From an uncultured Acetobacteraceae bacterium (GTDB lineage: Bacteria; Pseudomonadota; Alphaproteobacteria; Acetobacterales; Acetobacteraceae), in NCBI GenBank assembly GCA_903900905.1, contig CAIUPC010000673.1:1-43328 (forward strand): 43,328 nucleotides of DNA, given 5' to 3'. Made by a program: the position numbers and the translations under genes. Shown here in pieces: positions 1,218-21,411 of this stretch. Position 1 is the first letter of the stretch, and each line of letters starts with the position of its first letter. The notes below the pieces were generated by a model. It saw only the letters and a list, made by a program, of their open reading frames with translations. It made no database searches and was not told where the DNA came from.

Positions 1218-1490
1218 CTAGTCGACATGCGCGGCGAGGCAGTAGGTACGCTTGATCCGTCCAGGGACGACGCGCTGTCCGTGGGGCTTCAGGCGTTTGT
1301 TGAGCTTGACGATGCGCGGGCCGAGCCAGCTTTGGGCGTAGTGCCGCCCCCGGCCATCGGTCTCGGCAGCGCGCTCCGGCCGGCCGCCGAGCGCCAGATA
1401 CAGGTCGACGAAGGCCACGTCGCCGCTGCGCTGCAGAATCTCGTAAAGCTGGCGTTGCTGGCTGGCGAGTTTCGGGGCGCTATTTGTCAT
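1218..1490 (-). CDS. Small hypothetical protein, possible DNA-binding (90 aa)
   Basis: MTNSAPKLASQQRQLYEILQRSGDVAFVDLYLAL...WLGPRIVKLNKRLKPHGQRVVPGRIKRTYCLA; overlaps the polymerase stop; winged-helix-like pattern. Confidence 0.6.
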   Translation of the reverse strand: MTNSAPKLASQQRQLYEILQRSGDVAFVDLYLALGGRPERAAETDGRGRHYAQSWLGPRIVKLNKRLKPHGQRVVPGRIKRTYCLAAHVD

Positions 1491-4359
1491 ATCTGTCGCC
1501 TTCCCAGGTCGTGGCTGCGAGCGGCACGTCGGCCAGCCACTTGGATTTCTGAAGCAAAATACCGCGGTATTCGTCGATTGAGCCGAAGCCCGCGTCGACC
1601 TCCGACAAGGCCTCGTCATGCACAGTCAGCACGGTCTCATAGCCCGCCTCTTCCAGCCGGAACATGGCGTCGACCAGGACTTCCCTGGCCGTGCCTGAGA
1701 CGACGTGAGCGCACTGCATCCCGCCATACAGATCCATCTGGCGCCAGCCCTTGTGCTGGCCCCAATAGGACACGGTGTGCCGGTTGAACTCGATCTCGTC
1801 GCCGTCGATCACCATGACTTTGGTCTTCCAGGCCAGAGACGGTGCGGCGTAGGAGATCACCCCGCCGTTCGGCAACATGCAGAACAGGAAACTCTTGTCC
1901 TTGGTGCAGGTATATTTCACCCGCCCGCCCAGGACCGAGATCACGCAGCCCGGCGCGCCAACGGCCTCGATCGCGCCGTTCTGCAGCTCGTACCAGGAGG
2001 CGGCGATGGCGGGGTTGCTCGCGCGCCAGCCGGCCACGATCTCCCGGATGCGGCTATCGGGCAGGCGCACGCCGTACTTGGCGCCCATCTTTTTGAAAGC
2101 GCCCAGGCTGCCTTGATAGCCGCAATTATGAACTATCAGAGGTCCGCTGTTTGTCTGGATAGTAAAACAGTTGTCCGGCCCCGCATGTGCAATGTCGTAC
2201 ACATCGCTCCAGCGCATTAATACGCTGCTGCATTTCTTGGACGGATCGCTTGTTGAGCAGGTTCTCCGATTTGGTAATGAACCGGAGATTGCCCGGCTCG
2301 TAGTCCCCGTCCACTTCAACGCGATCCATTTCCAGATTCGGCTGATCCCAACCGACCAAGGTAACGAGGTGGCGCAAGAATTCTCGCCGGCCTTGCACGC
2401 CTTTTGTCCAGGGGCCGTATACGCGTATCCCCCGTGCAGCATAGTTTTTTGCTCCCTGCGTAGCGTTCCCTGGCCTGCACCGAGTGAGACAAGCGGAAAT
2501 TCGATTAAGGAGCCTGCGGCGGTGAGCCTCGTCGGGAACGATGTCTGCGTAAGCGAAGAAAGATTTTCGCCAAAAGCCTGCTTGTTTGGCCGCGCAGCTA
2601 CTGCAGCGGGTTGATTTTCCCCGGCGCAAATTGGAGACGTGAACGCTGTGTTCATCAGCTCCGCAGGAACATCGGACCAGTATGCGGTACACGCCTCCGG
2701 CTTGCCCGAGGACGTAGCCAGTGACTGTAAGCTCGCCGAACCGGTCGCCAATGCTTGGGCGCTCAAGTATGGGCCGGAAGCGACTTTCCCCGCTTCTGCC
2801 CAGGTTTGTCCAACCCGGACCTGATGATCCGAAGTGAGCCATGTCCCGAACAATTCTTGCACCTGGCGGAAGCCCTTGTGAACGAGGCCTGCGTGCGTCA
2901 CCCATCGGCTACCATCCCAAAGCTTATCTTGAACCGTCACGTCCACGATACGCTTAAGCCCTGTGTCTGTAAACACTTGGGTATCAGGGCCTAGGCAAGC
3001 GAGTTCGGGCACCTTGCCTTGCTCCTGGCGCTGGGCCTTGGAGACCTCTTCGGTCGGGATGCCGATGATTGAGCCCGCTGTGACCTTGTACAGGTCTGGC
3101 CCTTCGCCGCGGTCATAAGCGGCGAAGGCCTCCAGCTTCCAGTGTTCGCCCGCCAGCCATGCGTTGATACGGCCTTCGATGTTGGAGAAGTCCCCGCCCA
3201 TCAGCTTCTTGCCCGGCGGCGCTATGACGCAGGCCCGCGCGCACATGCTCAGCACGTCCAACGGAGCGTCGAACATAAACTCCAGCATGTCGGCTGTGGC
3301 GTCCGGCGATAGATCCTGGTGCAGCAGATCGACGGCGGCGCGCACGGCGGCGCTGTCTTCATCGGTGTCGATCCGCTTCATGTTGTGGAACTGCACGCCG
3401 GCCCCGGCCCAGCGCTTTTGGACGGTGGCGCTATATTTCAGGCTGTCGCGCACCCGCCCGTCGCGGCACACCGCGTCCGACATGGCTGAGAACTTGAAGG
3501 CCTTGGCCGACGCCGCGCGCAGCCGCACGACTTGTTCGACCAGGGGTTTGTCGAACAGATCGGCGCCGACCAGCAGATCTTCGTGCTCGTCTTTGGCGAT
3601 GCTGTCGCAGGGCACACCCTGCGCCGTGATCCAGGCGACGATCTTGCCGGTCTCGGTGGCCTTCTTGACGGCGCCGTTGGTCAGCTTCCAGATTTCCCGG
3701 TCGGCTCTCTTAGATGCGGCAGCGACGACGGCCAGTGCCTTGTGCACCATGGGCATGTCCAGGGCGACACCGCGATCGTTGATGTGCTGATCAAGCTCCC
3801 ACACGCGATGCTCTCGTGGCGACAGTGGGGGCAGATGATCGTCAACGGCACACTCGGAATCGACGTCTCGTTCGCAATAGGCTCCGAGACGTTCAAGGCG
3901 CTCTTCATCTTCCCACCATGTGATCGTGCCGTCCGCTGCGACATCGCGCGGCTTGCACATCTGCAGCATCAGCCGATGCCCGTCCTTGTCCTTGGTGATA
4001 TCGCAGCGGAGCGCGGCGCCCAGGCTGTCCAGCGACGCCGGTAGGCCCATGGCGACGGCACGGGACATGGTGCAGTCCTGCTGTTCGGGTCGGGGATAAC
4101 CATTGCCGATGTAGGGCGCCAAGATCGCGCGCTCAAACTGCTGGTTGTGCCCGGCCATCGGTAGGCCATCCAGAATGTGGTTGCGAACTTCATCGGGCAA
4201 CCAAGAGCCGCGCCAAGAGCGTATCGGTCCATCGTCGAACCGATACGCCCCTAGGATGATCGACGTGGTTGGGTCCTCCGCATAGCGATGCGCCCCGACC
4301 TTCCGCAAATCGGCGGCCGACCGGGTTTCAAGGTCTATGTGGAGGACCCGCTGGCTCAT
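1480..4359 (-). CDS. Family A DNA polymerase precursor interrupted by an intein
   Basis: MSQRVLHIDLETRSAADLRKVGAHRYAEDP (3'-5' exonuclease-like start), ...GKVPELA[intein]CGYQGSLGAFKKMG... (motif B), ...VLTVHDEALSEV (motif C). Start refined to 4359 from the ATGA overlap with the preceding ORF. Confidence 0.92.
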   Translation of the reverse strand: MSQRVLHIDLETRSAADLRKVGAHRYAEDPTTSIILGAYRFDDGPIRSWRGSWLPDEVRNHILDGLPMAGHNQQFERAILAPYIGNGYPRPEQQDCTMSRAVAMGLPASLDSLGAALRCDITKDKDGHRLMLQMCKPRDVAADGTITWWEDEERLERLGAYCERDVDSECAVDDHLPPLSPREHRVWELDQHINDRGVALDMPMVHKALAVVAAASKRADREIWKLTNGAVKKATETGKIVAWITAQGVPCDSIAKDEHEDLLVGADLFDKPLVEQVVRLRAASAKAFKFSAMSDAVCRDGRVRDSLKYSATVQKRWAGAGVQFHNMKRIDTDEDSAAVRAAVDLLHQDLSPDATADMLEFMFDAPLDVLSMCARACVIAPPGKKLMGGDFSNIEGRINAWLAGEHWKLEAFAAYDRGEGPDLYKVTAGSIIGIPTEEVSKAQRQEQGKVPELACLGPDTQVFTDTGLKRIVDVTVQDKLWDGSRWVTHAGLVHKGFRQVQELFGTWLTSDHQVRVGQTWAEAGKVASGPYLSAQALATGSASLQSLATSSGKPEACTAYWSDVPAELMNTAFTSPICAGENQPAAVAARPNKQAFGENLSSLTQTSFPTRLTAAGSLIEFPLVSLGAGQGTLRREQKTMLHGGYAYTAPGQKACKAGENSCATSLPWSVGISRIWKWIALKWTGTTSRAISGSLPNRRTCSTSDPSKKCSSVLMRWSDVYDIAHAGPDNCFTIQTNSGPLIVHNCGYQGSLGAFKKMGAKYGVRLPDSRIREIVAGWRASNPAIAASWYELQNGAIEAVGAPGCVISVLGGRVKYTCTKDKSFLFCMLPNGGVISYAAPSLAWKTKVMVIDGDEIEFNRHTVSYWGQHKGWRQMDLYGGMQCAHVVSGTAREVLVDAMFRLEEAGYETVLTVHDEALSEVDAGFGSIDEYRGILLQKSKWLADVPLAATTWEGDRYDK
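2125..2997 (-). other. Intein in DNA polymerase (291 aa, C1...HN|C+1)
   Basis: ELA|CLGPDTQVFTDTGLKRIVDV (block A), GTWLTSDHQV (block B), VYDIAHAGPDNCFTI (block F), GPLIVHN|CGYQG (block G). Removing it restores KVPELACGYQGSLGAFKKMG. Confidence 0.93.
2126..2842 (-). CDS. HNH homing endonuclease nested out of frame inside the polymerase intein
   Basis: SIGDRFGELTVTGYVLG..YRILVRCSCG..VHVSNLRRGKSTRCSSCA (zinc/DNA-binding module common in phage HNH enzymes), then KNYAARGIRVYGPWT...MDRVEVDGDYEPGNLRFITKSENLLNKR (HNH signature). ORF track opens at 2905; likely ATG at 2842. Confidence 0.85.
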   Translation of the reverse strand: MAHFGSSGPGWTNLGRSGESRFRPILERPSIGDRFGELTVTGYVLGQAGGVYRILVRCSCGADEHSVHVSNLRRGKSTRCSSCAAKQAGFWRKSFFAYADIVPDEAHRRRLLNRISACLTRCRPGNATQGAKNYAARGIRVYGPWTKGVQGRREFLRHLVTLVGWDQPNLEMDRVEVDGDYEPGNLRFITKSENLLNKRSVQEMQQRINALERCVRHCTCGAGQLFYYPDKQRTSDSS

Positions 4360-4430
4360 CGAAGCACGAAGTACAAGACGATACCGAAAAGACCGGCCAC
4401 CGTAAGCGTTAAACCGACTTCGGGACTCAT
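4356..4430 (-). CDS. 24-aa single-span membrane peptide
   Basis: MSPEVGLTLTVAGLFGIVLYFVLR*; ATGA overlaps on both sides (4430/4427 with the upstream gene and 4359/4356 with polymerase). Confidence 0.6.
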   Translation of the reverse strand: MSPEVGLTLTVAGLFGIVLYFVLR

Positions 4431-5125
4431 GCGAAGATGTCCACCGGCTCTTCGCCGTTCGTGTCCGCGGCACCGAAGGCGGCAGCCGGGTTCACGTCCG
4501 ACGACAGGTTGATGCCTTCGAAATCCTTGTTGGGGTTCGAGGACCCAGAACCGCCCAGGCTTTCGTCGTCCTGGACGATCATGACCGACTGCAGATAGAA
4601 GTTCGGGCCTTCGTTGCCGTCGACCTTGAACCAACTGCACGGTGATGCCGTGACCATGGCCCAGACGCCGGAGTAGCAGGACTTCTCGTCGATCACCGGC
4701 GCGAGGCGCTGGTTGACCACCGGCGGCTGGCTGCCGGGGGAGTTCATAGAGATCGCGGTGCGGCCTTCCACAAAACCCTCGTACAGGTTGCCGGTCTTGG
4801 TGTCGACGAAGCTGTCCTGCTTCTTGAAGGGGTTGTGGTACTTCTCGGCGATCGCCTTATTGGTCAGGGCCAGGGGGGCCTTCTCCTTGAGCTTGGCGGT
4901 CGCCTCGGTCTTCAGCAGCTTCAGGTCGGCGCAGTCCGGGAACAAAAGCACGGCGCCCCAGGACTTCAGGTTGCCGGCCTTGGTCTTCTTTTGCTCGCCG
5001 ACGAGATTGACGAACGCCAGGCGTACCGGGCCGAACACGATATTGCCGTTCTCCAGCTTCTTGGGCGGGTACTTCGCCCAGGCGCCTTCGATCCATTCCT
5101 TGGTCACATTCGATTTTTCAGACAT
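4427..5125 (-). CDS. DUF2815-like ssDNA-binding protein
   Basis: MSEKSNVTKEWIEGAWAKYPPKKLENGNIVFGPVRLAFVNL... with acidic C-terminal tail EEPVDIFA; adjacent to polymerase and DUF2800-like gene. Confidence 0.8.
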   Translation of the reverse strand: MSEKSNVTKEWIEGAWAKYPPKKLENGNIVFGPVRLAFVNLVGEQKKTKAGNLKSWGAVLLFPDCADLKLLKTEATAKLKEKAPLALTNKAIAEKYHNPFKKQDSFVDTKTGNLYEGFVEGRTAISMNSPGSQPPVVNQRLAPVIDEKSCYSGVWAMVTASPCSWFKVDGNEGPNFYLQSVMIVQDDESLGGSGSSNPNKDFEGINLSSDVNPAAAFGAADTNGEEPVDIFA

Positions 5126-5137
5126 TCAAATCTTCCT

Positions 5138-6406
5138 TCATTCAGCCGTCAGATTGATGCCTGAGTAGGCATCGGCGATCGCGTTGACGGCAGGGCGTCG
5201 ATCGCTCGTGGGGGCGATAGTCAGCCCAGACGATTCCTTGAGGGTGAAGCGCAGCTTGAAGTCGTCGATCTGCGCCTTGGTGGCGCCGGCGGCTTTCAGC
5301 AGCTTCTCGGCCTCGGTGATGGTGGTCAGCTTGCGCGGACGGATTTGCTCCACGTCGATGCCGAAGACCATGTCCGCATAGTCCGCGACTTCCTCGTCAG
5401 CCGACACCCACTTGGCGCGGCCGATCTTCTCCACGGCCTTCCAGCCCGCCACCGGCTGGCCGGCAAGCACCAGGGCCTCGACATATTCCTGAACCTGGTT
5501 GAGCCAGCCGTTGAGAATTTGGCCGGCCTGGAGGATTTGACCGAGCCGGTCCATGTCGTAGGTCTTCGGATCGGGCAGGGCGTCGGCGGTGATAGCGGTC
5601 ATGTGCGCAAAATCCAGTTGAGCGGCGCGTAGGACTTCCTGCTCCCGCAGCGGGCAGACAGCGGCAGCGGCGCACCAGCGGCACCAGGAGCCAGAGGAAA
5701 AGTCCGGCAGACTGAACACGCGGTTGTCGAAGTCTTTGGCCTTGGCTACAGCGTCGGCGATCTCGCCGCTGAACTCCATCAGATCCAGGGGGTTCATCGA
5801 CCAGCGCTTGATGCCGAGCTTGGTCTCGCGGTCGGCGTCGTCCGGCAGTCCGGCCAAGGACCGGTCGCGCGGCTGAACGATTACCAGTTCAAGCGCACTG
5901 ATGCGCCAGTCCGGCTTGGAGAACACCGCGCCGGCCGCATAGAACTTGATTTGCTTGCTGTCGTCCGCCGACACCGAAAACCCGACGCCATGCTTGTAGT
6001 CGAAGCTGACCAGCCGCCCGGTCTTCGGATGATAGACCATCGCGTCGACCGTGCCGCCGACTTCGCCTTCAGCGCCAGGCACATCCAGTTCGAACTGTGT
6101 CTCGACGTAAAGCTCGGCTTCCTTGGTCTGAGCCATCTCGTGCAGCACGGCGTTGAGATAGACCACGACCGCGTCGCACATCTCCTGCGTGACCGGGTAT
6201 CCCGGCCACTCAGGAAAGGCTTCGCCCAGATGCTCGGCGGGGTGCTCGTCGTTCTGCAGACATAGTGCCGCCAGATGGTGGGCGGCTGAGCCTTCATCGG
6301 CGTAGCGAGACCCAGCCTTCGGCGGCAAGGTCTCGATCAGGGCGGTCGAACCGGCGCAGTTGATGTACCTGTCCGCGCCGGAGCCGCCGAAGCGATAGTG
6401 CTTCAT
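5138..6406 (-). CDS. DUF2800 / Cas4-like PD-(D/E)XK nuclease
   Basis: MKHYRFGGSGADRYINCAGS...GEVGGTVDAMVYHPKTGRLVSFDYKHGVGFSV...QIKFYA... and C-terminal Cys cluster SWCRWCAAAAVCPLRE. Confidence 0.82.
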   Translation of the reverse strand: MKHYRFGGSGADRYINCAGSTALIETLPPKAGSRYADEGSAAHHLAALCLQNDEHPAEHLGEAFPEWPGYPVTQEMCDAVVVYLNAVLHEMAQTKEAELYVETQFELDVPGAEGEVGGTVDAMVYHPKTGRLVSFDYKHGVGFSVSADDSKQIKFYAAGAVFSKPDWRISALELVIVQPRDRSLAGLPDDADRETKLGIKRWSMNPLDLMEFSGEIADAVAKAKDFDNRVFSLPDFSSGSWCRWCAAAAVCPLREQEVLRAAQLDFAHMTAITADALPDPKTYDMDRLGQILQAGQILNGWLNQVQEYVEALVLAGQPVAGWKAVEKIGRAKWVSADEEVADYADMVFGIDVEQIRPRKLTTITEAEKLLKAAGATKAQIDDFKLRFTLKESSGLTIAPTSDRRPAVNAIADAYSGINLTAE

Positions 6407-6413
6407 GACACGC

Positions 6414-6935
6414 CTACTTCAACAGAGCGATGTAGGCGGCGAAGTCCTTCGGCTGCAGGGTGCTCAGCCGATCGACCGGCTGGCCGTCCGCGGTGACGAA
6501 GTGCTCGCGCAGCAGATCGCGGGCCTGCTTCATGGAGCCCTTGCCGCCGTCCGGCGAGCACCACTTGGTGGTGGCCTCGGTGACGGATTCAAACGTGGCC
6601 GCTTCACCCTCCTGGCTTGCAGCAGGCCGCGCAGTCTCGTTGGACGAAGCTTCCGTCTGGCTGTCGGTCGACGGTGAATCGGTATCCAGCGCAGACGCGG
6701 CAGCCTGGGGGCTGCGGGCGGCTTCCATCTCGGCCTTGGTGCGGCGAGTGCGCTTGCCGGCCTCTTCGGCCTGGGCGGGCGTCTCGGCGACGGGCGCCGG
6801 TTCCAAGCTTTCCGCAGCGGCGATAGCCGCCGGTGCAATCACAGCGGTGGACATACCGGATCGAGCGATGTCCATGACGGTTTTGAGCAGATCGGCGGCG
6901 TCGAGCGCCACGATATTAAGGGTGACTTGGGCCAC
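6414..6935 (-). CDS. Hypothetical protein (173 aa, low-complexity middle)
   Basis: Intact ORF in the operon between the Cas4-like nuclease and the SNF2 helicase. Confidence 0.6.
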   Translation of the reverse strand: MAQVTLNIVALDAADLLKTVMDIARSGMSTAVIAPAAIAAAESLEPAPVAETPAQAEEAGKRTRRTKAEMEAARSPQAAASALDTDSPSTDSQTEASSNETARPAASQEGEAATFESVTEATTKWCSPDGGKGSMKQARDLLREHFVTADGQPVDRLSTLQPKDFAAYIALLK

Positions 6936-6998
6936 GGGGTTGTCTCCGGTTATGGCTAAAAATAGAATTAGGACCCTATGCTCATTCGAGCGGAGCCG

Positions 6999-9203
6999 TC
7001 AACTATATTCTTGCTCATGAATTTGCGCGATCGCCGCCGTCTTTCGGGCAACCACGGCGGACACATGCTCGTCGATCGAGCCTGCCAAAGTGATGAAGCG
7101 GGCCTGGACGGACCGGGTTTGGCCTATGCGGTGGCAGCGCATGATCGCCTGGGCATTGCCGGCCGGGGACCAGTCGCTCTCGAACATCACGATGTCCGCT
7201 GCTGCTGTAAGAGTGATCCCGGTTCCAGCAGCTTTGATGTTTCCGAGAAAAACTCGGCAGCCAGGGTCCTGCTGAAACTGCGCAACAGCGCGGCCTCGAT
7301 CACCTTCACTTGTGCTTCCGTCCAGCCGGACGCAGCCGATACCTCCAGCCGTAAGTCCGTCGAAAAGATGATCGAGGCCTCGCCGATGGATGCCGAACAC
7401 GACAACTTTGTCGAGGCCATTATGCAGTTCCTCTTTTAGCAGTTCCAGGAAAGCGGGAGCTTTCGCCTCCCCCACCAGGCGGCGAAGGGTTGCGATGTGC
7501 TGGGCGTCCAGAAAAGACAGACCGCCCTTCTCGACGGCGTCGATCACGGCCTTCTCCATGCCTGGATGCTCGCGCAGCAGGGCCCGGATTTCCTCGGTGT
7601 CGCCGTCCACGGTCGTCGTCGTCAGCCAGATCGGCGGAAGTTGAACGCCGGCCTCGGCTTTGGTGCGCCGCAGGCTGAAGCTGGCCAGGGCTTGCTTCAG
7701 CTCGGGCAGCTTCTCGGCGCGTGGGCTGTGCGACTCGGAGAAGCTGGACATCTTCGAGCGGAAATAGCGGTTGCAGAAAGTATCGCGGCTCAGCGTCGTG
7801 GCCTGGCAGAAGCGCATGACCGACCAGCAATCGGCCGCGTCGTTCGGATTAGGTGTACCGGTCAGGAACCAGACCTGGGCGCCCCAACGCGCCAGGCCGG
7901 CGGTTCCGTCGCACTTGGAGCCTAGCAGGGAGATCGTGCGCTGGGCGGTAGGCGACTTTAGGTAGTGGCAGTTGCCGACGAGTACGCCGTTTGCAAAGTA
8001 GTTATGGTTGTCTGCAACTTCGATATTATAGACGGCAGTTCGTTCAGCACTTCGCGGTTCTTGAACCTCAACACGGACCACCCGAGAGAATGCAGCACCA
8101 GCTCCTTCCTGAAATCTAGGTATTGCCATTTTCTGGACTGGTGACTCGGCCCATCCACTTCGATAGCCAGCTTCAACCTCGGATGCGCTATATCCACCTT
8201 GTAAACGGGCGGCAAACTCTCGAATTTCCCCTTCACCGGGGCCGTCAATATGCCGTACTCCATCCAGTTCACCGGCCAACCCAGCGCTTCGCAGAGCATG
8301 ATCTGTGGCTTCGTCCTGAAGCCGTTGCCGCCCCGCTGCCCGATCCAACTCTGACCTTTCCGCAACCTCGACGCTGCGTCCAGTTTGGCGCGAAATTCCG
8401 GGTCTGAATTCAGGCGCCGCATCCTCTCGGCCGCATCTGGCCTCGGCGTCCCCTTCCGGGTTTTCTGCAACGCTATCATATCTCGAGGGAAAGCTTTGGA
8501 CCGCCACTTTGCAGAGCACGTCTTTCCGCAAAACCGCTGGAAGTGTAAACGCTGGAACTCTTGGTTGCACCACTCGCAGCACATCGTTTTTATCAAGCCG
8601 TGCTGCTTCGACATAGCCTCTGAGGGTCCATATTTTGTGGTTCGGCGTGCACTCGAAAGCGCCCATCTGGTGGTGCACCGTCACGAGGCTTTCCGTGTAG
8701 GTTCTTATATAACGGGTCACAGGCTTTAACTCAAGCCCGTTCAGGCCCCAGCACCACACCTTTATAGGTAATCGGCCCTCAACGATTTCTCCGATAAATC
8801 GAGGCCCTAGCTCGGTGTCGACCATTGCGAAATAAGGGAAGCACTCGTCAAACACGACCGTGTCGATGATGTCCTTGGACATGCGCAGCGCCCACTTGGC
8901 GGCCATCTCGTAGGACAGCAGCAGCACGTCGGCCTTGCCTCGAAGCCAGGTGTTCAAGTCCTGGATATCGCGGCCCTTAATAATCCGGCGCTGGATCTTG
9001 GCGAACTTCTTGAACTCGCCGACCCAGACTTCGCGCACCGCGGCGGGGCAGACAATGACGATCCGTCGGGCCTTGACGGCGTCCATGGCGGCGATGGCCT
9101 GGCAAGTTTTACCTAGACCAGGGACATCAAACAAAGCTCCTCGCTCTCTCTTAGCGAGAAAAATCGCACCTTCTTTTTGGTAAGGAAAAAGACTCAGGGA
9201 CAC
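6999..9203 (-). CDS. SNF2-family DEAD/DEAH helicase precursor interrupted by an intein
   Basis: LFPYQKEGAIFLAKRERGALFDVPGLGKTCQAIAAMD (Walker A), DTVVFDE[intein]CHYLKSPTAQRT (Walker B), WFLTGTPNPN, ...RCHRIGQTRSVQARFITLAGSIDEHV (motif VI). Probable GTG start at 9203, overlapping the upstream stop; the ORF track opens at 9263. Confidence 0.9.
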   Translation of the reverse strand: MSLSLFPYQKEGAIFLAKRERGALFDVPGLGKTCQAIAAMDAVKARRIVIVCPAAVREVWVGEFKKFAKIQRRIIKGRDIQDLNTWLRGKADVLLLSYEMAAKWALRMSKDIIDTVVFDECFPYFAMVDTELGPRFIGEIVEGRLPIKVWCWGLNGLELKPVTRYIRTYTESLVTVHHQMGAFECTPNHKIWTLRGYVEAARLDKNDVLRVVQPRVPAFTLPAVLRKDVLCKVAVQSFPSRYDSVAENPEGDAEARCGREDAAPEFRPGISRQTGRSVEVAERSELDRAAGRQRLQDEATDHALRSAGLAGELDGVRHIDGPGEGEIREFAARLQGGYSASEVEAGYRSGWAESPVQKMAIPRFQEGAGAAFSRVVRVEVQEPRSAERTAVYNIEVADNHNYFANGVLVGNCHYLKSPTAQRTISLLGSKCDGTAGLARWGAQVWFLTGTPNPNDAADCWSVMRFCQATTLSRDTFCNRYFRSKMSSFSESHSPRAEKLPELKQALASFSLRRTKAEAGVQLPPIWLTTTTVDGDTEEIRALLREHPGMEKAVIDAVEKGGLSFLDAQHIATLRRLVGEAKAPAFLELLKEELHNGLDKVVVFGIHRRGLDHLFDGLTAGGIGCVRLDGSTSEGDRGRAVAQFQQDPGCRVFLGNIKAAGTGITLTAAADIVMFESDWSPAGNAQAIMRCHRIGQTRSVQARFITLAGSIDEHVSAVVARKTAAIAQIHEQEYS
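7958..8614 (-). CDS. Vsr/DUF559-fold (EDxHD-type) homing endonuclease nested out of frame inside the helicase intein
   Basis: MSKQHGLIKTMCCEWCNQEFQRLHFQRFCGKTC (Zn finger) ... KPQIMLCEALGWPVNWMEYGI...YKVDIAHPRLKLAIEVDGPSHQSRKWQYLDFRKELVLHSLGWSVLRFKNREVLN. Stop TAA lies in the C-extein. Confidence 0.86.
   Translation of the reverse strand: MSKQHGLIKTMCCEWCNQEFQRLHFQRFCGKTCSAKWRSKAFPRDMIALQKTRKGTPRPDAAERMRRLNSDPEFRAKLDAASRLRKGQSWIGQRGGNGFRTKPQIMLCEALGWPVNWMEYGILTAPVKGKFESLPPVYKVDIAHPRLKLAIEVDGPSHQSRKWQYLDFRKELVLHSLGWSVLRFKNREVLNELPSIISKLQTTITTLQTAYSSATATT
7971..8843 (-). other. Intein in SNF2 helicase (291 aa, C1...GN|C+1)
   Basis: FDE|CFPYFAMVDTELGPRFIGEI (block A), GAFECTPNHKIWT (block B), VYNIEVADNHNYFANGVLVGN|CHYLKS (blocks F/G). 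Splicing restores DECHYLKSP. Confidence 0.93.
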
Positions 9204-9382
9204 GGCTTCACGGTGCCGGTGGGGAGGAGGGAGGGAAGCATGTCTGCAACTCGGAATGGCCAATCATCACTGATGAACGTGCCGTCCACAAGTTCACGAT
9301 AGCCCCACTCATGCGGGCCACCGTCAGCCATCTCCAGGTACAGCCGCTCAAGCTCCTCCAGATTCACGGGTTGGTCGGTCAT
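9194..9382 (-). CDS. Hypothetical protein (62 aa)
   Basis: MTDQPVNLEELERLYLEMADGGPHEWGYRELVDGTFISDDWPFRVADMLPSLLPTGTVKPCP; ATGA with upstream ORF. Confidence 0.6.
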   Translation of the reverse strand: MTDQPVNLEELERLYLEMADGGPHEWGYRELVDGTFISDDWPFRVADMLPSLLPTGTVKPCP

Positions 9383-9561
9383 GATTGCACCCCGCGATAG
9401 ACGGACAGCCAGCCAAGGCCGATGACGACATTGCCAGCCGTTTTCAGACATACGGATCGCAGCGAAAACTCTGCCCAGAACAGGTGTCCGCTTATGGAGA
9501 TCAGTTCCCCGCCGACCATGAATGCGGCTATCCCAGCAGCAAGTAATGCAAGGGACCTCAC
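9379..9561 (-). CDS. Small membrane protein (about 60 aa)
   Basis: GTG start in a GTGA overlap; MRSLALLAAGIAAFMVGGELISISGHLFWAEFSLRSVCLKTAGNVVIGLGWLSVYRGVQS, two hydrophobic segments. Confidence 0.6.
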   Translation of the reverse strand: MRSLALLAAGIAAFMVGGELISISGHLFWAEFSLRSVCLKTAGNVVIGLGWLSVYRGVQS

Positions 9562-14726: not shown

Positions 14727-14947
14727 CCGTGGTGGCCGAGACGTTCGTCTTCCGGGGATCGAGCAACCTGGCGGAAGCCAGCTACGATCCCGAAGTCGAG
14801 AACCTGGACATCACGTTCCAGAGCGGGGACCGCTACACATATTTCAACGTGCCGGCGGCTGTGTACCGATCGCTGACCTTGGCGCCGAGCGCTGGCCAGT
14901 ATTTCCACCGGCAGATCAAGGGCGTCTATAGTTACGAGCAGCAGTGA
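14723..14947 (+). CDS. KTSC-domain protein
   Basis: FRGSSNLAEASYDPEVENLDITFQSGDRYTYFNVPAAVYRSLTLAPSAGQYFHRQIKGVYSYE. Confidence 0.75.
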   Translation: MTVVAETFVFRGSSNLAEASYDPEVENLDITFQSGDRYTYFNVPAAVYRSLTLAPSAGQYFHRQIKGVYSYEQQ

Positions 14948-16992
14948 TGGACCTGACGCCCATCCAGCAGACCCAGGTTCGCCTGGGTCGCGATCGCATC
15001 CTGGCCCATGGCGCGCTGTTCCGCCACCGCCATCCGAACAAGTCCCCCGACTTCCACAAGCAACTGATCCACGACTGGCACGCTTCGGACAGTTCCTTCC
15101 TGGACATGGTCTTTCGCGGCGGCGCCAAGTCAACCATCGCGGAAGAAGCCATCGTCGTTAAGGCCTGCTTTCGGGAGTTCAAGAACTGCCTGATCGTCGG
15201 CGCTGACTTCGACCGCGCCGCGTCACGCCTCCACGCCGTGCGCATGGAGTTCGAGAACAACGAACTGATCCGGCAGATTTTCGGGGACCTGACCGGCGAG
15301 CCCTGGGGCGCCGACCGCATCGTCACGTCGACCGGCATCTGTATCCAGGCCATGGGCCGGGGGCAGTCCCTGCGCGGCATCAAGTGGCTGGACACCCGGC
15401 CGGACCTGTTGTTCGCCGACGACCTGGAAGACTATGCCGATGTGCTCAAGCCCGAAGGCCGCAAGAAGATCCACGACTGGTTTGACGGCGAACTGATACC
15501 GGCGCTGGAGCCCGGCTACATGGCGCGCATGGCGGCCACGCCGCTGCACATCGAAGCCCTGCCCAACCACGTCATGCTCGACCCGAGCTGGAAGACCCAC
15601 AAGTTCCCGATCAAATACCGCGACCCCGACACAGGCGAATGGGTGGCCTCTTGGCCTGACCGCTTCCCCTTGACCGAAGCCGAAGCAACCATTCTGCGCA
15701 AGACCAACCCCAAGGTGGAGTCGATCGAGAAGATCGAGACCGCCTTGATCAAGAAGGGCCAGGCCGCCCTGTGGATGGCGGAGTACATGTGCGAGGCAGA
15801 GTCGCCGGAGACCAAGGCCTTCAAGCAGGAGATGTTCCGTATCGAGCCCCAGGTCCGCACCTGGCAGGCCGTCTATTCGATGATCGACCCGGCGCGCACC
15901 ATTGGCGTCAAATCCGCCACCACCGGCAAGGCCACCTGGTCCTGGTCGCATGGCAAGCTGATCATCTGGGATGCCTGGGCCAAGCGGCTGATGCCGGACC
16001 AGATCATCGATTCCCTCTTTCAGGACTTCGACGAGTACCACCCGGTCTATCAGGGCTTCGAGGAAGACGGCCTGAACCAGTGGGCGCTGCAACCTATTCG
16101 CCAGGAGATGGTTCGCCGCGGCGTGGCGCTGCCGCTCAAGCCGGTGCGCGCGCCGCCAGGCAAGATCGACTTCATCCGGGGCCTGCAGCCCTTCTTCCAC
16201 GGTCGCGAAGTGATCTTCGCCAAGCCCCTGCCGGAGTTGCAGCAGCAACTGCTGGGCTTCCCCAGCGGCGAGATCGACGCGCCCAACGCCCTGGCCTATG
16301 CTCTGCGCCTGCGCCCCGGCGCACCGCTCTACAACGATTTTGGAGGCCGCCATGTCGCCGAGGACATCGAACCGCTTCAGGGCCGCCCTGTGTGGCTCTG
16401 CCTCAACGCTACCCGTTCAATGGTCTCTGGGGTTGCAGTCCAGGTCTTCGACGGAGCGCTTCGCATTTACGCGGACGCCGTCCGCGACGGAGAGCCCGGC
16501 CAAGCCCTCCCTGGCCTGATCACCGACATGCAGGCCGATCTGGGCCGTGAGCTGCGCCTCGCCGCCGGGCCGCTGCACTTTGACCGCTACAACAATGTCG
16601 GCCTGGTCGCGGCGGCGTCGAAGATCCCGATGCGCGTCACGCCGGCCGTCGACACCCAGCGTGGCCGCGCTAAGCTGACCGACATGCTCCAGCGCGAGAA
16701 GGCCGGCCTGCCGATGCTGATGGTGTCCAGTCGGGCAGTGTGGACCCTTAACGCCTTCAGCGGCGGCTACAGCCGCGTCCTGCTCAAGCAGGGCCAACTG
16801 GCGGACTATGCCGAAGAAGGGCCCTACCGTGTGCTGATGGAAGGCCTGGAGAGCTATGCGGGCCTGATGGACCTGGGTTCGACAGACGACCCAAGAGAAG
16901 CTAGGCTGAACGCCGAGACCGCCGATGGCCGGGCCTATCGGTCCACGCTCGGGGGAAGCCTGGCGCTGCGCGAAAGCAAAGGCGGCTGGTGA
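14947..16992 (+). CDS. Terminase large subunit
   Basis: MVFRGGAKSTIAEEAIVVKACF (ATPase P-loop-like), DLLFADDLEDYADV (Walker B), C-terminal nuclease-like region. Confidence 0.85.
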   Translation: MDLTPIQQTQVRLGRDRILAHGALFRHRHPNKSPDFHKQLIHDWHASDSSFLDMVFRGGAKSTIAEEAIVVKACFREFKNCLIVGADFDRAASRLHAVRMEFENNELIRQIFGDLTGEPWGADRIVTSTGICIQAMGRGQSLRGIKWLDTRPDLLFADDLEDYADVLKPEGRKKIHDWFDGELIPALEPGYMARMAATPLHIEALPNHVMLDPSWKTHKFPIKYRDPDTGEWVASWPDRFPLTEAEATILRKTNPKVESIEKIETALIKKGQAALWMAEYMCEAESPETKAFKQEMFRIEPQVRTWQAVYSMIDPARTIGVKSATTGKATWSWSHGKLIIWDAWAKRLMPDQIIDSLFQDFDEYHPVYQGFEEDGLNQWALQPIRQEMVRRGVALPLKPVRAPPGKIDFIRGLQPFFHGREVIFAKPLPELQQQLLGFPSGEIDAPNALAYALRLRPGAPLYNDFGGRHVAEDIEPLQGRPVWLCLNATRSMVSGVAVQVFDGALRIYADAVRDGEPGQALPGLITDMQADLGRELRLAAGPLHFDRYNNVGLVAAASKIPMRVTPAVDTQRGRAKLTDMLQREKAGLPMLMVSSRAVWTLNAFSGGYSRVLLKQGQLADYAEEGPYRVLMEGLESYAGLMDLGSTDDPREARLNAETADGRAYRSTLGGSLALRESKGGW

Positions 16993-17011
16993 TCGCGCAA
17001 AGGGGTTGAGC

Positions 17012-19138
17012 TTGGCCGACGAAATTGAAACGGAAGACGAAGAGCTTCCCGAAGACAGCGTCCTGCATGGCCGGGCCGACGAACTGCCTCTGACCGAGGA
17101 GGTCAAGGGCAAGCTGAAGAAGCTGTTCGTTGATGTTGAAAAAGGCTTCGAGGACCAGCGCTCGCGCACCGAAGACTTGATGGACAATTGGGACCTGTAT
17201 CACTGCCGCCTGGGCGATAAGCAGTTCTACGCCGGCAACTCCAAGATTTTCGTGCCCTTCGTCAAGGATGCGGTCGACGCGCGGGTGACACGCTTCGTCA
17301 ACCAGATGTTCCCGCAGTCCGGCCGCTATGTGGAAGTCACCACCGGCGAGGCCGACCCGCCCTTCGCCACCCAGGCCCTGATCGAAAGCTATGTGCGCCA
17401 GTCCAAGATGCGCACGCGGATCATGCCGGCGCTGATCCGCAACGGCGACATCGAAGGCCAGTATTCGATCTATGTCTCCTGGAAGGAGCACAAGCGCGCG
17501 TCGGTGTTCCGCACGCAGCGCCAGCCGACCACCGACGGCCTGCCCAATGAAGCCGCCAGTCCAGTCGACGACGTGGAAGAAGAAGAGATCGTCGACGAGG
17601 CTCCGGACGTGGAAGTTCTGTCCGACGCCGATCTGCTGGTGATGCCGGTCACGGCGTCCTCGATCGACGATGCCCTGGACTGCGGCGGCTCCGTCACGGT
17701 CATGCGCCGCTGGACCACCGGCAAGATCAAGGCCCTGATCGCTCAAGGCGAGATCGAGGAAGACCAGGGCGAAGACCTGATCGAGGCGATGAACGCCGTC
17801 CGCAACGACGACAAGGTCGACACCGCCAAGAAGATGGCGGACGCCGCCGGCATCAAGTCCAAGGGCAAGACCGCTCTGGTCTATGAGACCTGGCACATCG
17901 CCAAGGTCGAAGGCGAGCCGCGTCTGTGCCGGACCTATTGGGCCGGTGACGACCGCTATCTGAGCCATCGCCGCAACCCCTTCTGGAATGACCGTTGCCC
18001 GGTGATCTCCGCGCCGACCGAGAAGGTCGCCGGGGTGTTCAAGGGCATGCCGCCGGTCAGCGCCGTGGCCGACCTGCAGATCTTCGCCAACGACACGATC
18101 AATGAAGGCGCCGACACCGCGCACTTCTCGGCCATGCCCATCATCATGACCGACCCCCTGAAGAACCCGCGTGTCGACACGATGGTGCTCGGCCTGGGCG
18201 CCGTGTGGGATACCAGCCCGGCCGACACCAAGATCGTGGAGTTCCCCGACCTGTGGCGCTCAGCCATCGAGCGCGCCGAGGCGATCAAGCAGCAAATCTT
18301 CCAGACCCTTGGCGTCAATCCCGCCATGATCCCTCAGCAGACTGGCGGGGCCAAGAAGCGCAACCAGGCCGAGATCGCCAACGAGCAGCAGGTCGACATC
18401 CTCACGACGGCCGACGCCGTGACCAACCTGGAAGAAGAGATCCTGACGCCAACGGTGCAGCGGTTTGCCGAATACGATCACCAGTTCCGCGACCACGAGA
18501 TCACGGTGCGCATCTATGGCGAGATGGGTCTGCGCGCCAACATGGAAGAGGTTGAGCCTCTGCAGCTCAACAAGCGCTTCGAGTTTCGCTGGTACGGCGT
18601 GGAGTCGGCGCGCAACGCCGCGCAGATGCAGCAGCAAATTGCCTGGGTTAACGTAGTGAAGGAGCTACCGCCCACGGCCTACCCGAACTACGATCTCGAT
18701 ATTTCGCCGATGATCGTCCAGGGCACGGAAAACGTGTTTGGTCCGCGGATCGCGCCGCTGATCTTCAAGCGCAAGACGGTGATCTCGGTCGATCCTGAGC
18801 AAGAGAACATGATGCTCGACCACGGCTTCCGCGTGGCGGTCCACCCTGGTGACGACGACATGCAGCACATCCAGGTTCACCTGGCCGGCGTCCAAGAAGG
18901 TGGTGATCCGCATGGAACCTTCCGCGAGCACATCCAGCTTCACCAGCAGCAGATGCAGGCTAAGGTCATGGCGGCGCAGCAGTCGCAGCCCGCCGGCGGC
19001 GCCGGGCCGGGGGGCGGCGCAGGGCCAGCACCGGGCGGTCAACCGACCATGCCGCGCCAAGGCAAGCAGCCGGCGGGCGCCATCCACCCTGATTCCATGC
19101 CCAAGGCGGGCGCTACGCCGATGCCGCGAAAGATGTAG
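17012..19138 (+). CDS. Portal protein
   Basis: ADEIETEDEELPEDSV...KIFVPFVKDAVDARVTRFVNQMFP...NDTINEGADTAHFSAMPIIMTDPL...; follows TerL; probable TTG start at 17012. Confidence 0.82.
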   Translation: MADEIETEDEELPEDSVLHGRADELPLTEEVKGKLKKLFVDVEKGFEDQRSRTEDLMDNWDLYHCRLGDKQFYAGNSKIFVPFVKDAVDARVTRFVNQMFPQSGRYVEVTTGEADPPFATQALIESYVRQSKMRTRIMPALIRNGDIEGQYSIYVSWKEHKRASVFRTQRQPTTDGLPNEAASPVDDVEEEEIVDEAPDVEVLSDADLLVMPVTASSIDDALDCGGSVTVMRRWTTGKIKALIAQGEIEEDQGEDLIEAMNAVRNDDKVDTAKKMADAAGIKSKGKTALVYETWHIAKVEGEPRLCRTYWAGDDRYLSHRRNPFWNDRCPVISAPTEKVAGVFKGMPPVSAVADLQIFANDTINEGADTAHFSAMPIIMTDPLKNPRVDTMVLGLGAVWDTSPADTKIVEFPDLWRSAIERAEAIKQQIFQTLGVNPAMIPQQTGGAKKRNQAEIANEQQVDILTTADAVTNLEEEILTPTVQRFAEYDHQFRDHEITVRIYGEMGLRANMEEVEPLQLNKRFEFRWYGVESARNAAQMQQQIAWVNVVKELPPTAYPNYDLDISPMIVQGTENVFGPRIAPLIFKRKTVISVDPEQENMMLDHGFRVAVHPGDDDMQHIQVHLAGVQEGGDPHGTFREHIQLHQQQMQAKVMAAQQSQPAGGAGPGGGAGPAPGGQPTMPRQGKQPAGAIHPDSMPKAGATPMPRKM

Positions 19139-19143
19139 CTGAG

Positions 19144-19170
19144 TTGACATTCGGCCAAGCCTGATACAAT
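19144..19170 (+). promoter_or_regulatory. Promoter-like sequence upstream of scaffold/capsid genes
   Basis: TTGACA-N15-TACAAT in an otherwise non-coding 105-nt gap. Confidence 0.45.
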
Positions 19171-19243
19171 CCTCAAGCTTCGGAGCCCGCAACGATAACG
19201 GGCAGCACTCGATTTGCCGGCGATACCGGCTGGAAGGACGACC

Positions 19244-20023
19244 ATGTTTCGACGGATGCTCATGGGCTCCACGGTGTTCCGTGCGCCTGAGAATGATCAA
19301 GGCCACGAAGCCGATGATCTGGACGAGGACTTCTCCCTCGACGAGCCTCCCGAAGATGACGAGGTCGACGATGTCGATCCTGACGCCGACCTCGACGAGG
19401 TTGATGACGACAACCAGGACGACGAACCTCCTGCACGGCAACAGAGCCGCGGCGAAAGCCGCGTAGCCGCCGCCACCCGCACCGCCGCCGAAGCCAAGCG
19501 TGAAGCCGCCGAGCTTCGCGAACGGCTCGCGGCGATGGAGGCGCGCAGCGCCGCCCCGGCTGCTTCGCAGGAAACCGCCGCACAACGCGAACAGCGCCTG
19601 GCTCAGCTTGAGCCGTGGGAACGCACCGAGGTGCTGCGGCAGGAAGACAGCCGCCGAATGGAATCCCAAATCGCGCAGATGCGCTGGGAAAGCCAGGAGG
19701 CAGCCGACCGAACCGCTTACGACGCGCTCTGCGCCCGCAAGCCGGTGGCGGCGAAGCTGAAGGACGAAGTCGAAGCCCGTCTAGCGGATATGCGCAAGGC
19801 CGGCACGACGGCGCCCCGAGAAACGGTTTTGCGCTGGGTGATCGGTGATCGAGCCCTGGCGAACGAAGGCAAAGCGACCGGCCGCGCGCAGAAAGCTGCG
19901 AGCGCCAATCGCGACAGGCAAACCACCCGGCCTACTAATGGTCGGGCGGACGCAGCGCCGAGCGATCGGCGAGGCGGGGACTCCTCTAAGCGCGACAAGC
20001 GCATAGAGAATTATCAACTGTGA
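19244..20023 (+). CDS. Putative scaffolding protein
   Basis: Acidic N-terminus, coiled-coil middle (AEAKREAAELRERLAAMEARS...), basic C-terminus; between portal and MCP. Confidence 0.7.
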   Translation: MFRRMLMGSTVFRAPENDQGHEADDLDEDFSLDEPPEDDEVDDVDPDADLDEVDDDNQDDEPPARQQSRGESRVAAATRTAAEAKREAAELRERLAAMEARSAAPAASQETAAQREQRLAQLEPWERTEVLRQEDSRRMESQIAQMRWESQEAADRTAYDALCARKPVAAKLKDEVEARLADMRKAGTTAPRETVLRWVIGDRALANEGKATGRAQKAASANRDRQTTRPTNGRADAAPSDRRGGDSSKRDKRIENYQL

Positions 20024-20039
20024 TGGGGTAGCCTTCCGC

Positions 20040-20058
20040 TCCCCGTCCTGAACGGGGA
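20040..20058 (+). promoter_or_regulatory. Hairpin enclosing the capsid-gene Shine-Dalgarno
   Basis: TCCCCGT-CCTGA-ACGGGGA; GGGGA lies in the 3' arm, 6 nt before ATG at 20065. Confidence 0.5.
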
Positions 20059-20064
20059 TGCCAG

Positions 20065-21411
20065 ATGGCCACCAACCAGGCTAGTCAGTTTCAAGCCGAC
20101 ATCGAAGGCTATATCGCCGACAAGACGCTGCCGCTCGCGCGCCGCCAGCTTGTCGCGTTCCAATTCGCGGACAAGTCCGAAGGCATCCCTAAGGGCCGCG
20201 GCGTCAATTACACCGCCACCCGCTACCAGCGCCTGCCGCTGCCTTTCGCGCCGCTGAGCGAGGGCGTCCCGCCGATCGGCGAGACCATGACCATCCAGCA
20301 AGTCACCGCTACCGCCCTGCAGTGGGGCGACAAGGTCACGATTACCGACGTGGCCGAAATGACCATCAAGCACCCGCTGTTCAAGAAGGCGACCGAACTG
20401 GTGGCCCTGCAACTCGCGGAAACCCTGGAGCGCAACACCTTCAACGCCCTGATGGGCGGCACCCAGGTCAACTACGTCAACTCACGCGGCTCGCGCGGCG
20501 CCCTGGTCGCTGGTGACGTGCTGGACGGCCAGACTGTCATCCGTACCGACATGGCTCTGGAAACCCTCGGCGCTCCGCGCTGGATGGGCGACGAGATGAC
20601 CGACACCAAGATTGACGCCGGCGCCCCGACCAAGGCTTCGTCCGATCCCCGGTCGATGCCGCACTATGTGGCTATCTGCCACCACGCCGTGGTCGCCGAC
20701 TTCCGCCAACAATCGGACGTGAAGCTGGCCTGGACCTATTCGGATCTGAACCGCCTCTACAACTATGAGGCCGGCGAGTGGTCCGGTATCCGCTTCTGCA
20801 AGACCAACATGGTCCCGTCCTTCACGGGCGTGGCGCAGATCAACGGCACGGCCGGCACGGCGGGCAACCTCGCGACGAACTCGACCTATTACATCATCGT
20901 CACGGCGTCGGACACGCAGAACCAGTACGAGAGCCGTATCTATCAGGTGTCCACCGCCGCCAACGTGACCGGCCCGAACGGCTCGGTTTCGGTTGTGCTG
21001 CCGGCCCTGGTCGGCTTTACCTTCAACATCTACATCGGCACCACGACCAGCCCGGCCCAGCTCGGCCTGACGGCGGCCGGCCCGACCACCGGACCCTACA
21101 TCGGCCAGGCCGTGCAACTGGCCCCCGGCCAGACCGTGATCATCACGGGCCTTGGCATGACGCAAGTGCCGCCCGCGGCGCCCGCGACCGGCTTGACGGT
21201 GTATCCGACCTTCATCATGGGCCGGGGCGCCTACGCCCAGGTCGAACTGGACAACGTGAAGTTCACGTATCTGAAGAACGCGGACAAATCAGACCCCTTG
21301 AATCAACTCCGAATCGTAGGATGGAAAGCGTTTTACGGGACTTTGTTAAGCAATGTCCAGTTTATGGCGCGCATTGAGAGCGTCAGCGCATACAGCACTT
21401 CTTTCGGCTAG
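20065..21411 (+). CDS. Major capsid protein (N4-gp56-like) with inserted Ig-like domain
   Basis: MATNQASQFQADIEGYIADKTLPLARRQLVAFQFADKSEGIPKGRGVNYTATRYQRLPLP...TDVAEMTIKHPLFKKATELVALQLAETLERNTFNALMGG...VYPTFIMGRGAYAQVEL...DPLNQLRIVGWKAFYGTLLSNVQFMARIES. Confidence 0.85.
   Translation: MATNQASQFQADIEGYIADKTLPLARRQLVAFQFADKSEGIPKGRGVNYTATRYQRLPLPFAPLSEGVPPIGETMTIQQVTATALQWGDKVTITDVAEMTIKHPLFKKATELVALQLAETLERNTFNALMGGTQVNYVNSRGSRGALVAGDVLDGQTVIRTDMALETLGAPRWMGDEMTDTKIDAGAPTKASSDPRSMPHYVAICHHAVVADFRQQSDVKLAWTYSDLNRLYNYEAGEWSGIRFCKTNMVPSFTGVAQINGTAGTAGNLATNSTYYIIVTASDTQNQYESRIYQVSTAANVTGPNGSVSVVLPALVGFTFNIYIGTTTSPAQLGLTAAGPTTGPYIGQAVQLAPGQTVIITGLGMTQVPPAAPATGLTVYPTFIMGRGAYAQVELDNVKFTYLKNADKSDPLNQLRIVGWKAFYGTLLSNVQFMARIESVSAYSTSFG

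Follow-up and report, generated by a model that had tools for sequence, protein, structure and literature searches.

Probable homing endonuclease genes in a second reading frame of two inteins on a phage contig

We analyzed a window of 43,328 nucleotides, positions 1 to 43,328 of contig CAIUPC010000673.1 from the uncultured Acetobacteraceae assembly GCA_903900905.1, and find that it carries two inteins, one in a family-A DNA polymerase and one in an SNF2-type helicase, each overlapped by a complete nuclease open reading frame (ORF) in a different frame of the same strand. We consider it very probable that each locus is a mobile intein with its homing endonuclease in the second frame, that one message yields two products, and that the two loci represent two old lineages that have spread as units.

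The polymerase gene, intein included, is a single contiguous ORF on the minus strand (4362..1483). The N-extein (2998..4362; DNA_pol_A E = 3e-9, PHROG DNA polymerase E = 2e-72) extends up to GKVPELA, and the C-extein (1483..2124; PHROG DNA polymerase E = 2e-39) begins at Cys+1 with CGYQGSLG; the insertion point, GKVPELA|CGYQG, is what we take to be catalytic motif B. Between the two lies an intein of 291 codons (2125..2997, ELA|C...HN|CGYQG), identified from its splice junctions, AlphaFold and Foldseek predictions and an empty-site relative, with the host frame open from end to end. Cys1, block B (TSDH, codons 55-58), block F and the terminal HN|C are all present, and the Hint parts correspond to codons 1-~97 and ~260-291. 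The HNH ORF, which we call HNH-a, encodes 259 aa at +2 relative to the polymerase frame (2126..2905, minus strand; ATG at 2905, stop at 2128..2126) and overlaps 780 of the 873 intein nt, the stop codon counted. Its protein matches PHROG HNH (E = 2e-26) with no Pfam match, a sequence search for solved structures returned no relative, and within its family the motif D194 R195 Y202 P204 N206 is invariant.

The helicase gene is likewise one contiguous minus-strand ORF with its intein included (9263..6999). Its N-extein (8844..9263; SNF2-rel_dom E = 2e-19) ends at the Walker B motif VVFDE, and its C-extein (6999..7970; Helicase_C E = 1e-14) begins at Cys+1 with CHYLKSPT. The intein between them (7971..8843, VVFDE|C...GN|CHYLK) is again 291 codons long with an open host frame and contains Cys1, block B (TPNH, codons 66-69), block F and a terminal GN|C, in which Gly takes the place of the penultimate His. 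It matches the intein C-terminus model TIGR01443 (E = 1e-7) at 31.9 bits, above the cut-off of 15.6, and Intein_splicing (PF14890, E = 1e-7) at 32.1 bits, under the cut-off of 35.8. The endonuclease ORF, 218 aa at +1 relative to the helicase (7958..8614, minus strand; ATG at 8614, alternative ATG at 8584), overlaps 644 of the 873 intein nt and then 13 nt of the C-extein, where it stops (7960..7958). It matches DUF559 (E = 2e-11) and the profile of PDB entry 3hrl (E = 9e-10), and its EDxHD catalytic motif E-x-D-G-x-S-H is complete, with E152, D154, G155, S157 and H158 invariant among relatives.

By their splicing-motif anatomy (Cys1, TxxH, terminal Asn and Cys+1), both inserts are assigned to the inteins. 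Inteins are described as full, with the nuclease fused in frame, or as mini, with the nuclease lost. Here, the nucleases lie at +2 and +1 and the in-frame middle is disordered, which separates the two from canonical full inteins, and the complete nuclease ORFs in the other frame separate them from mini-inteins. A splicing domain stands beside the out-of-frame nuclease, which distinguishes them from ShiLan-type insertions, and both host ORFs are contiguous in the window, which distinguishes them from fractured genes, an arrangement that the relative L203 shows. The inserts could alternatively be group I introns carrying a nuclease gene, given that intron nucleases are free-standing genes and that the record of Sodalis phage SO-1 (L332, NC_013600.1), which annotates an overlapping HNH coding sequence, labels the polymerase as containing a type I self-splicing intron. 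We rejected this possibility, which is extremely unlikely in our view: an Rfam search of 1400..9400 gave no match up to E = 1, a group I intron RNA core included, every relative has an open host frame that selection maintains, and the intein motifs are accompanied by a predicted Hint fold. The SO-1 sequence is itself that of an intein. A further annotated case is Salmonella phage SS3e (L331, NC_006940.2), whose record breaks the polymerase into two pieces with an HNH gene between them; compared with Salmonella phage AG11, the locus has 2 extra nt and the frames shift, which indicates either a fractured gene or sequencing errors.

The frame relations are fixed across relatives, which we collected by nuclease sequence with the frame disregarded. 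A megablast search of the region against phages gave no match, and single-protein pattern scans returned one and no relatives; the relatives came from alignment-based protein searches, which yielded hundreds. In the viral set, the nuclease of every HNH-a locus (85/85, window included) lies at +2 within a long ORF that bears an intein, and that of every EDxHD locus (86/86) lies at +1. Among 39 EDxHD loci in bacterial genomes, namely the longer relatives among L170-L209 with the fragment L202 and similar borderline cases excluded, 36 are at +1 and three (L172, L177 and L203) have no contiguous host; the lower-ranked rows of that search were ordinary short free-standing DUF559 proteins. Carriers include Salmonella phage AG11, Vibrio phage CP-T1, Pseudomonas phage MR14, Corynebacterium phage phi673, Azospirillum canadense and Ktedonobacter racemifer. 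MR14 (L004) has both hidden-nuclease inteins, polymerase and helicase, as the window does.

At a GC content of 63%, which lengthens spurious ORFs, the nuclease frames might be chance open frames in coding DNA, or the loci might be assembly chimeras. When the codons of the window nucleases were permuted synonymously, the host frame acquired a mean of 5.1 (HNH) and 6.9 (EDxHD) stops, against none observed. The reverse permutation, of the window host codons, gave means of 7.2 and 2.9 stops in the HNH and EDxHD frames, respectively, and the EDxHD frame alone stayed open in 3.5% of permutations. The doubt raised by this last figure is removed by the conservation of the frame across relatives. Permuting the relatives gave 4.1 (HNH, n = 65) and 12.1 (EDxHD, n = 70) expected host-frame stops per sequence, and zero were observed in all of them; the host (intein) frame is kept open by selection. 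Identical frames recur in hundreds of independent contigs and in complete isolate genomes, and the nucleases are conserved at the protein level and match known families. Given the conserved offsets, we rejected the chance and chimera explanations, whose probability is negligible.

These data also bear on an initial sequence-only reading of the window, which had described two inteins with overlapping HNH (+2) and EDxHD (+1) ORFs and an intein frame that stays open. Both are present, on the minus strand, with their families matched, and the absence of host-frame stops against the permutation expectation agrees with that description; the two explanations it had named as fatal, chance given the GC content and chimeric assembly, are contradicted by the permutations and the conserved offsets. 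Its statement that the nuclease ORF begins in or just after block B holds for the EDxHD ORF, which starts just after TPNH, and fails for the HNH ORF, which starts at codon 31, before TSDH. It had left the equal length of 291 codons as either coincidence or a length constraint; intein lengths among relatives span 283-305 codons (polymerase) and 265-409 codons (EDxHD type), so the equal length is coincidence.

We next consider how one stretch of DNA serves two frames. In ordinary coding DNA, most variation falls at codon position 3. In an alignment of 60 polymerase inteins, host codon position 3 is the most variable over the N-terminal ~60 and C-terminal ~30 codons, and in the middle part it is host position 2, which is position 3 of the nuclease, that varies most. 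The nuclease-based alignment mirrors this pattern: constraint comes from the host frame over the first ~50 and last ~25 nuclease codons, and from the nuclease frame in the core. The frame under selection flips at the start and at the end of the nuclease core. Structure prediction shows the same partition: AlphaFold is confident (about 97) for residues 1-90 and 261-290 of the polymerase intein and falls below 50 at 121-245, and the HNH-a model is confident over about 50-240 with both tails disordered. The top Foldseek matches of the intein model are intein splicing domains (probability 1.00, E about 1e-3). Taken together, the codon-position variation and the AlphaFold models indicate that the DNA is divided, such that the disordered part of each frame overlies the folded part of the other. 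For the polymerase intein, AlphaFold gives a confidently predicted Hint fold, split by a disordered linker that is the nuclease gene read in the wrong frame.

The start of the HNH-a frame is conserved as well. Its ATG is formed with the last base of the codon that precedes the Trp of the host motif WDGxxW, and a start codon is present in all 64 sequences that cover this column (49 ATG, 12 GTG, 3 TTG and no CTG). Where Glu precedes the Trp, GAA outnumbers GAG by 31 to 7, although gene-wide use of GAA is 43% (p = 1.4e-6). The window also has a stop in the nuclease frame, 6 nt upstream of the ATG. The conserved start codon, the GAA bias and the upstream stop favor internal initiation over frameshifting, and we infer that the HNH nuclease is translated from an internal start. 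A programmed frameshift that fuses the N-terminal part of the intein to the nuclease, giving a fused rather than a separate enzyme, would be compatible with the distance over which the frames overlap before the nuclease core; set against the conserved internal start, with its biased codon choice, this is distinctly unlikely, and the upstream stop would confine any frameshift in the window HNH to the first ~45 nuclease codons.

Empty sites were found at the polymerase insertion point. Salmonella phage SETP13 lacks the polymerase intein of AG11: the two loci differ by exactly 897 nt (299 codons), with 97.4% identity between the exteins once joined. L252, a relative of the window polymerase that has no intein, is uninterrupted across the site, reading GKVPELACGYQGSLGAFKKMGAKYGV. 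A set of 11 polymerase C-exteins gave an alignment too diverse for scanning, and a closer set of six was used; of the polymerase relatives found via the C-extein, 78/80 were scored empty. In the Jerseyvirus group, the polymerase genes of isolates that have the element and of isolates that lack it are about 90% identical, which makes the proposal directly testable. The EDxHD inteins lie nearly always at the Walker B or DExH motif, directly after DE in 52 of 64, in hosts that comprise SNF2/ResIII helicases, DnaX and helicase-methylase fusions. The presence and absence of the element at an identical site points to homing into intein-less alleles.

The arrangement extends to other nucleases. HNH-b, from a different HNH subfamily, occurs at +1 at the same polymerase site in 46/46 IMG/VR loci, and the HNH-b polymerase group is also found in Streptococcus and Gardnerella phages. 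In Streptococcus phage PhiSdyV1524 (L359, 2983-3573), the HNH-b frame is stopped after 197 codons with the intein frame still open, which looks like decay of the nuclease alone. A scan with the intein C-terminus, biased towards EDxHD-type loci because its query came from EDxHD-type inteins, covered 80 loci, with classes read from host ORF coordinates and Pfam run on group representatives only. It gave 46 contiguous hidden EDxHD enzymes at +1, 6 hidden HNH_3-type enzymes at +2 and 6 hidden PF01844-type HNH enzymes at +1; the rest were 13 fractured genes, some of them with GIY-YIG or Vsr-like nucleases, 4 loci that lacked such a nuclease, 2 in-frame cases, 2 loci truncated at a contig end and 1 unknown. 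A survey of 399 Pseudomonadota genomes that began from Pfam inteins found 2 clear hidden EDxHD enzymes and one weak match among 23 loci. Recurrence of the architecture is supported by three further nuclease-frame combinations (HNH-b +1, HNH_3-type +2 and PF01844-type +1). Two helicase genes, L152 with a match to an in-frame HNH_3 domain and L109 with one to an in-frame LAGLIDADG domain, also carry a hidden EDxHD and so display both architectures in one gene. At the split-intein loci L466, L468, L470, L471 and L454, the two halves flank a GIY-YIG, Vsr-like or endonuclease-I-like gene, which takes the fractured-gene arrangement beyond EDxHD enzymes.

Neither offset varies among phages of several host phyla, nor does that of EDxHD in bacterial genomes, which marks each as an old module that moves as a unit; HNH-a at +2 and EDxHD at +1 are, as judged from these comparisons, two old frame-locked lineages and not fresh invasions of this phage. 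In a tree rooted on plain DUF559 proteins, the free-standing L172 and L177 and the fractured L203 fall inside the overlapping EDxHD clade. On the simplest reading, overlap would be ancestral in the sampled EDxHD family, and the fractured (split-intein) and free-standing forms would be derived from it. In the HNH tree, HNH-a, HNH-b and free-standing enzymes are separate and the root is not reliable; HNH-a and HNH-b may reflect two entries or one entry with a frame switch. The sequence-only reading had instead proposed a repeated route by which free-standing nucleases enter mini-inteins, which would here mean separate and recent invasions. That proposal would fit the occurrence of several nuclease families and of both offsets, the free-standing HNH genes found immediately downstream of polymerases without an intein in Chivirus-type phages, and the free EDxHD gene of L177, placed directly before a helicase that lacks an intein; we nevertheless think it unlikely, given offsets fixed across distant relatives and free-standing and fractured EDxHD forms nested in the overlapping clade. 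Its view that the two arrangements are not duplicates of one element is supported. The further nuclease-frame combinations likewise uphold a repeated arrangement, while the fixed offsets argue against two recent independent invasions in this phage, and the nesting runs counter to the suggested path from free-standing enzyme to mini-intein. Entry of free-standing enzymes may be right for the deep origins and wrong for this phage.

Two loci of free-standing genes can be described beside these trees. At L177 (3899-5964), the EDxHD gene is followed by a helicase with an empty DE|S site. In Salmonella phage MET_P1_122_58 (L362, 2597-3166 region), the gene immediately downstream of a DNA polymerase without an intein encodes a free-standing HNH, possibly a relative of the source of the hidden enzyme. 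The contig itself is a tailed phage or prophage within a 922-contig bacterial assembly; matches to a terminase large subunit, a head-tail adaptor and a major head protein lie at 14944-21411.

We propose that translation in the host frame would yield a precursor whose intein forms a Hint splicing domain from residues 1-~97 and ~260-291, with the ~150 residues in between, the nuclease gene read in the wrong frame, acting as a disordered linker. With such a predicted fold, the intein would splice itself out, and ribosomes starting at the conserved internal start codon would make the free nuclease. For the most part, the two folded proteins would draw on separate parts of the DNA, the tails of the nuclease overlying the splicing blocks and the intein linker the nuclease core. 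The nuclease would cut intein-less alleles at a catalytic motif (motif B in the polymerase, Walker B in the helicase), and repair after cleavage would copy intein and nuclease together, as the presence and absence at an identical site suggests. Several points weigh against this reading. Splicing, translation of the nucleases, cleavage and homing are steps that we infer. A fold search with the HNH-a model gave no significant PDB match, PacI being on top at E = 0.69. The Shine-Dalgarno-like signal upstream of the HNH start is confounded by a host-encoded motif, a search for one conserved start column in the EDxHD family did not find one, and both the HNH and EDxHD trees are quick searches with many open or weak forks.

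The closest published case is the hidden out-of-frame HNH of phage DNA methylases, with its "ShiLan domain" and Pacc40 insertion (Arsenault, Gosselin, Gogarten 2025, PMC11855218). There too, the insertion keeps the host frame open, its distribution is patchy and homing-like, and an internal start is proposed. However, that study finds no splicing domain of intein or intron type and expects the insertion to be retained in the protein, whereas at the loci described here a Hint domain with its splicing blocks is read in the host frame, the interrupted genes encode polymerases and Walker-B ATPases, and the nucleases belong to several families. According to a 2014 review (PMC3943268), the nuclease of an intein is translated fused to the intein itself. 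The window loci resemble such canonical full inteins in that the nuclease coding sequence interrupts the splicing domain at one site and the insertion lies in a conserved catalytic motif; they differ in having a disordered intein linker and a nuclease whose ORF is separate and in a different frame. Fractured genes with split inteins and EDxHD nucleases (Dassa et al. 2009, in the form in which PMC12350094 cites them) share an EDxHD-type nuclease between the intein halves, and L203 and about a dozen other loci are split in this manner; in contrast to that cited description, the window and most relatives have one contiguous host ORF overlapping the nuclease, and the split form is nested in the overlapping clade. 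The Jerseyvirus polymerase intein of Salmonella phage Ent3 (NC_024204) matches ours in gene, motif region and intein type, and the hidden HNH is present. Its record differs, describing the polymerase intein as only "encoding splicing domains", leaving the HNH unannotated and crediting the neighboring helicase intein with a LAGLIDADG enzyme. The public records that we checked had thus missed (Ent3) or misread (SO-1, as an intron) the hidden enzyme. The literature we searched held no out-of-frame endonuclease inside a genuine intein, a preprint on "non-canonical" actinobacteriophage inteins, cited in PMC11855218, lying outside its coverage.

We think it reasonably likely that out-of-frame homing endonucleases are a major recurrent intein architecture, with at least five nuclease-frame combinations, that they prevail in our viral-contig sample of Walker-B (DE|C) ATPase inteins and occur in bacterial genomes of many phyla, that some inteins recorded as endonuclease-free are probably mobile elements with a hidden enzyme, and that the fractured EDxHD split-intein genes descend from such inteins. 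A nuclease in the second frame breaks the division of inteins into full and mini, and it accounts for how mobility could persist in "splicing-only" inteins that have about 290-400 residues and a long disordered linker. For the EDxHD family at least, it also opens a way to get from contiguous inteins to split ones, and it is a clean natural case of two folded proteins that share one DNA stretch by dividing it. The loci provide candidate parts for split inteins, together with nucleases whose apparent targets are the codons of Walker B and of polymerase motif B.

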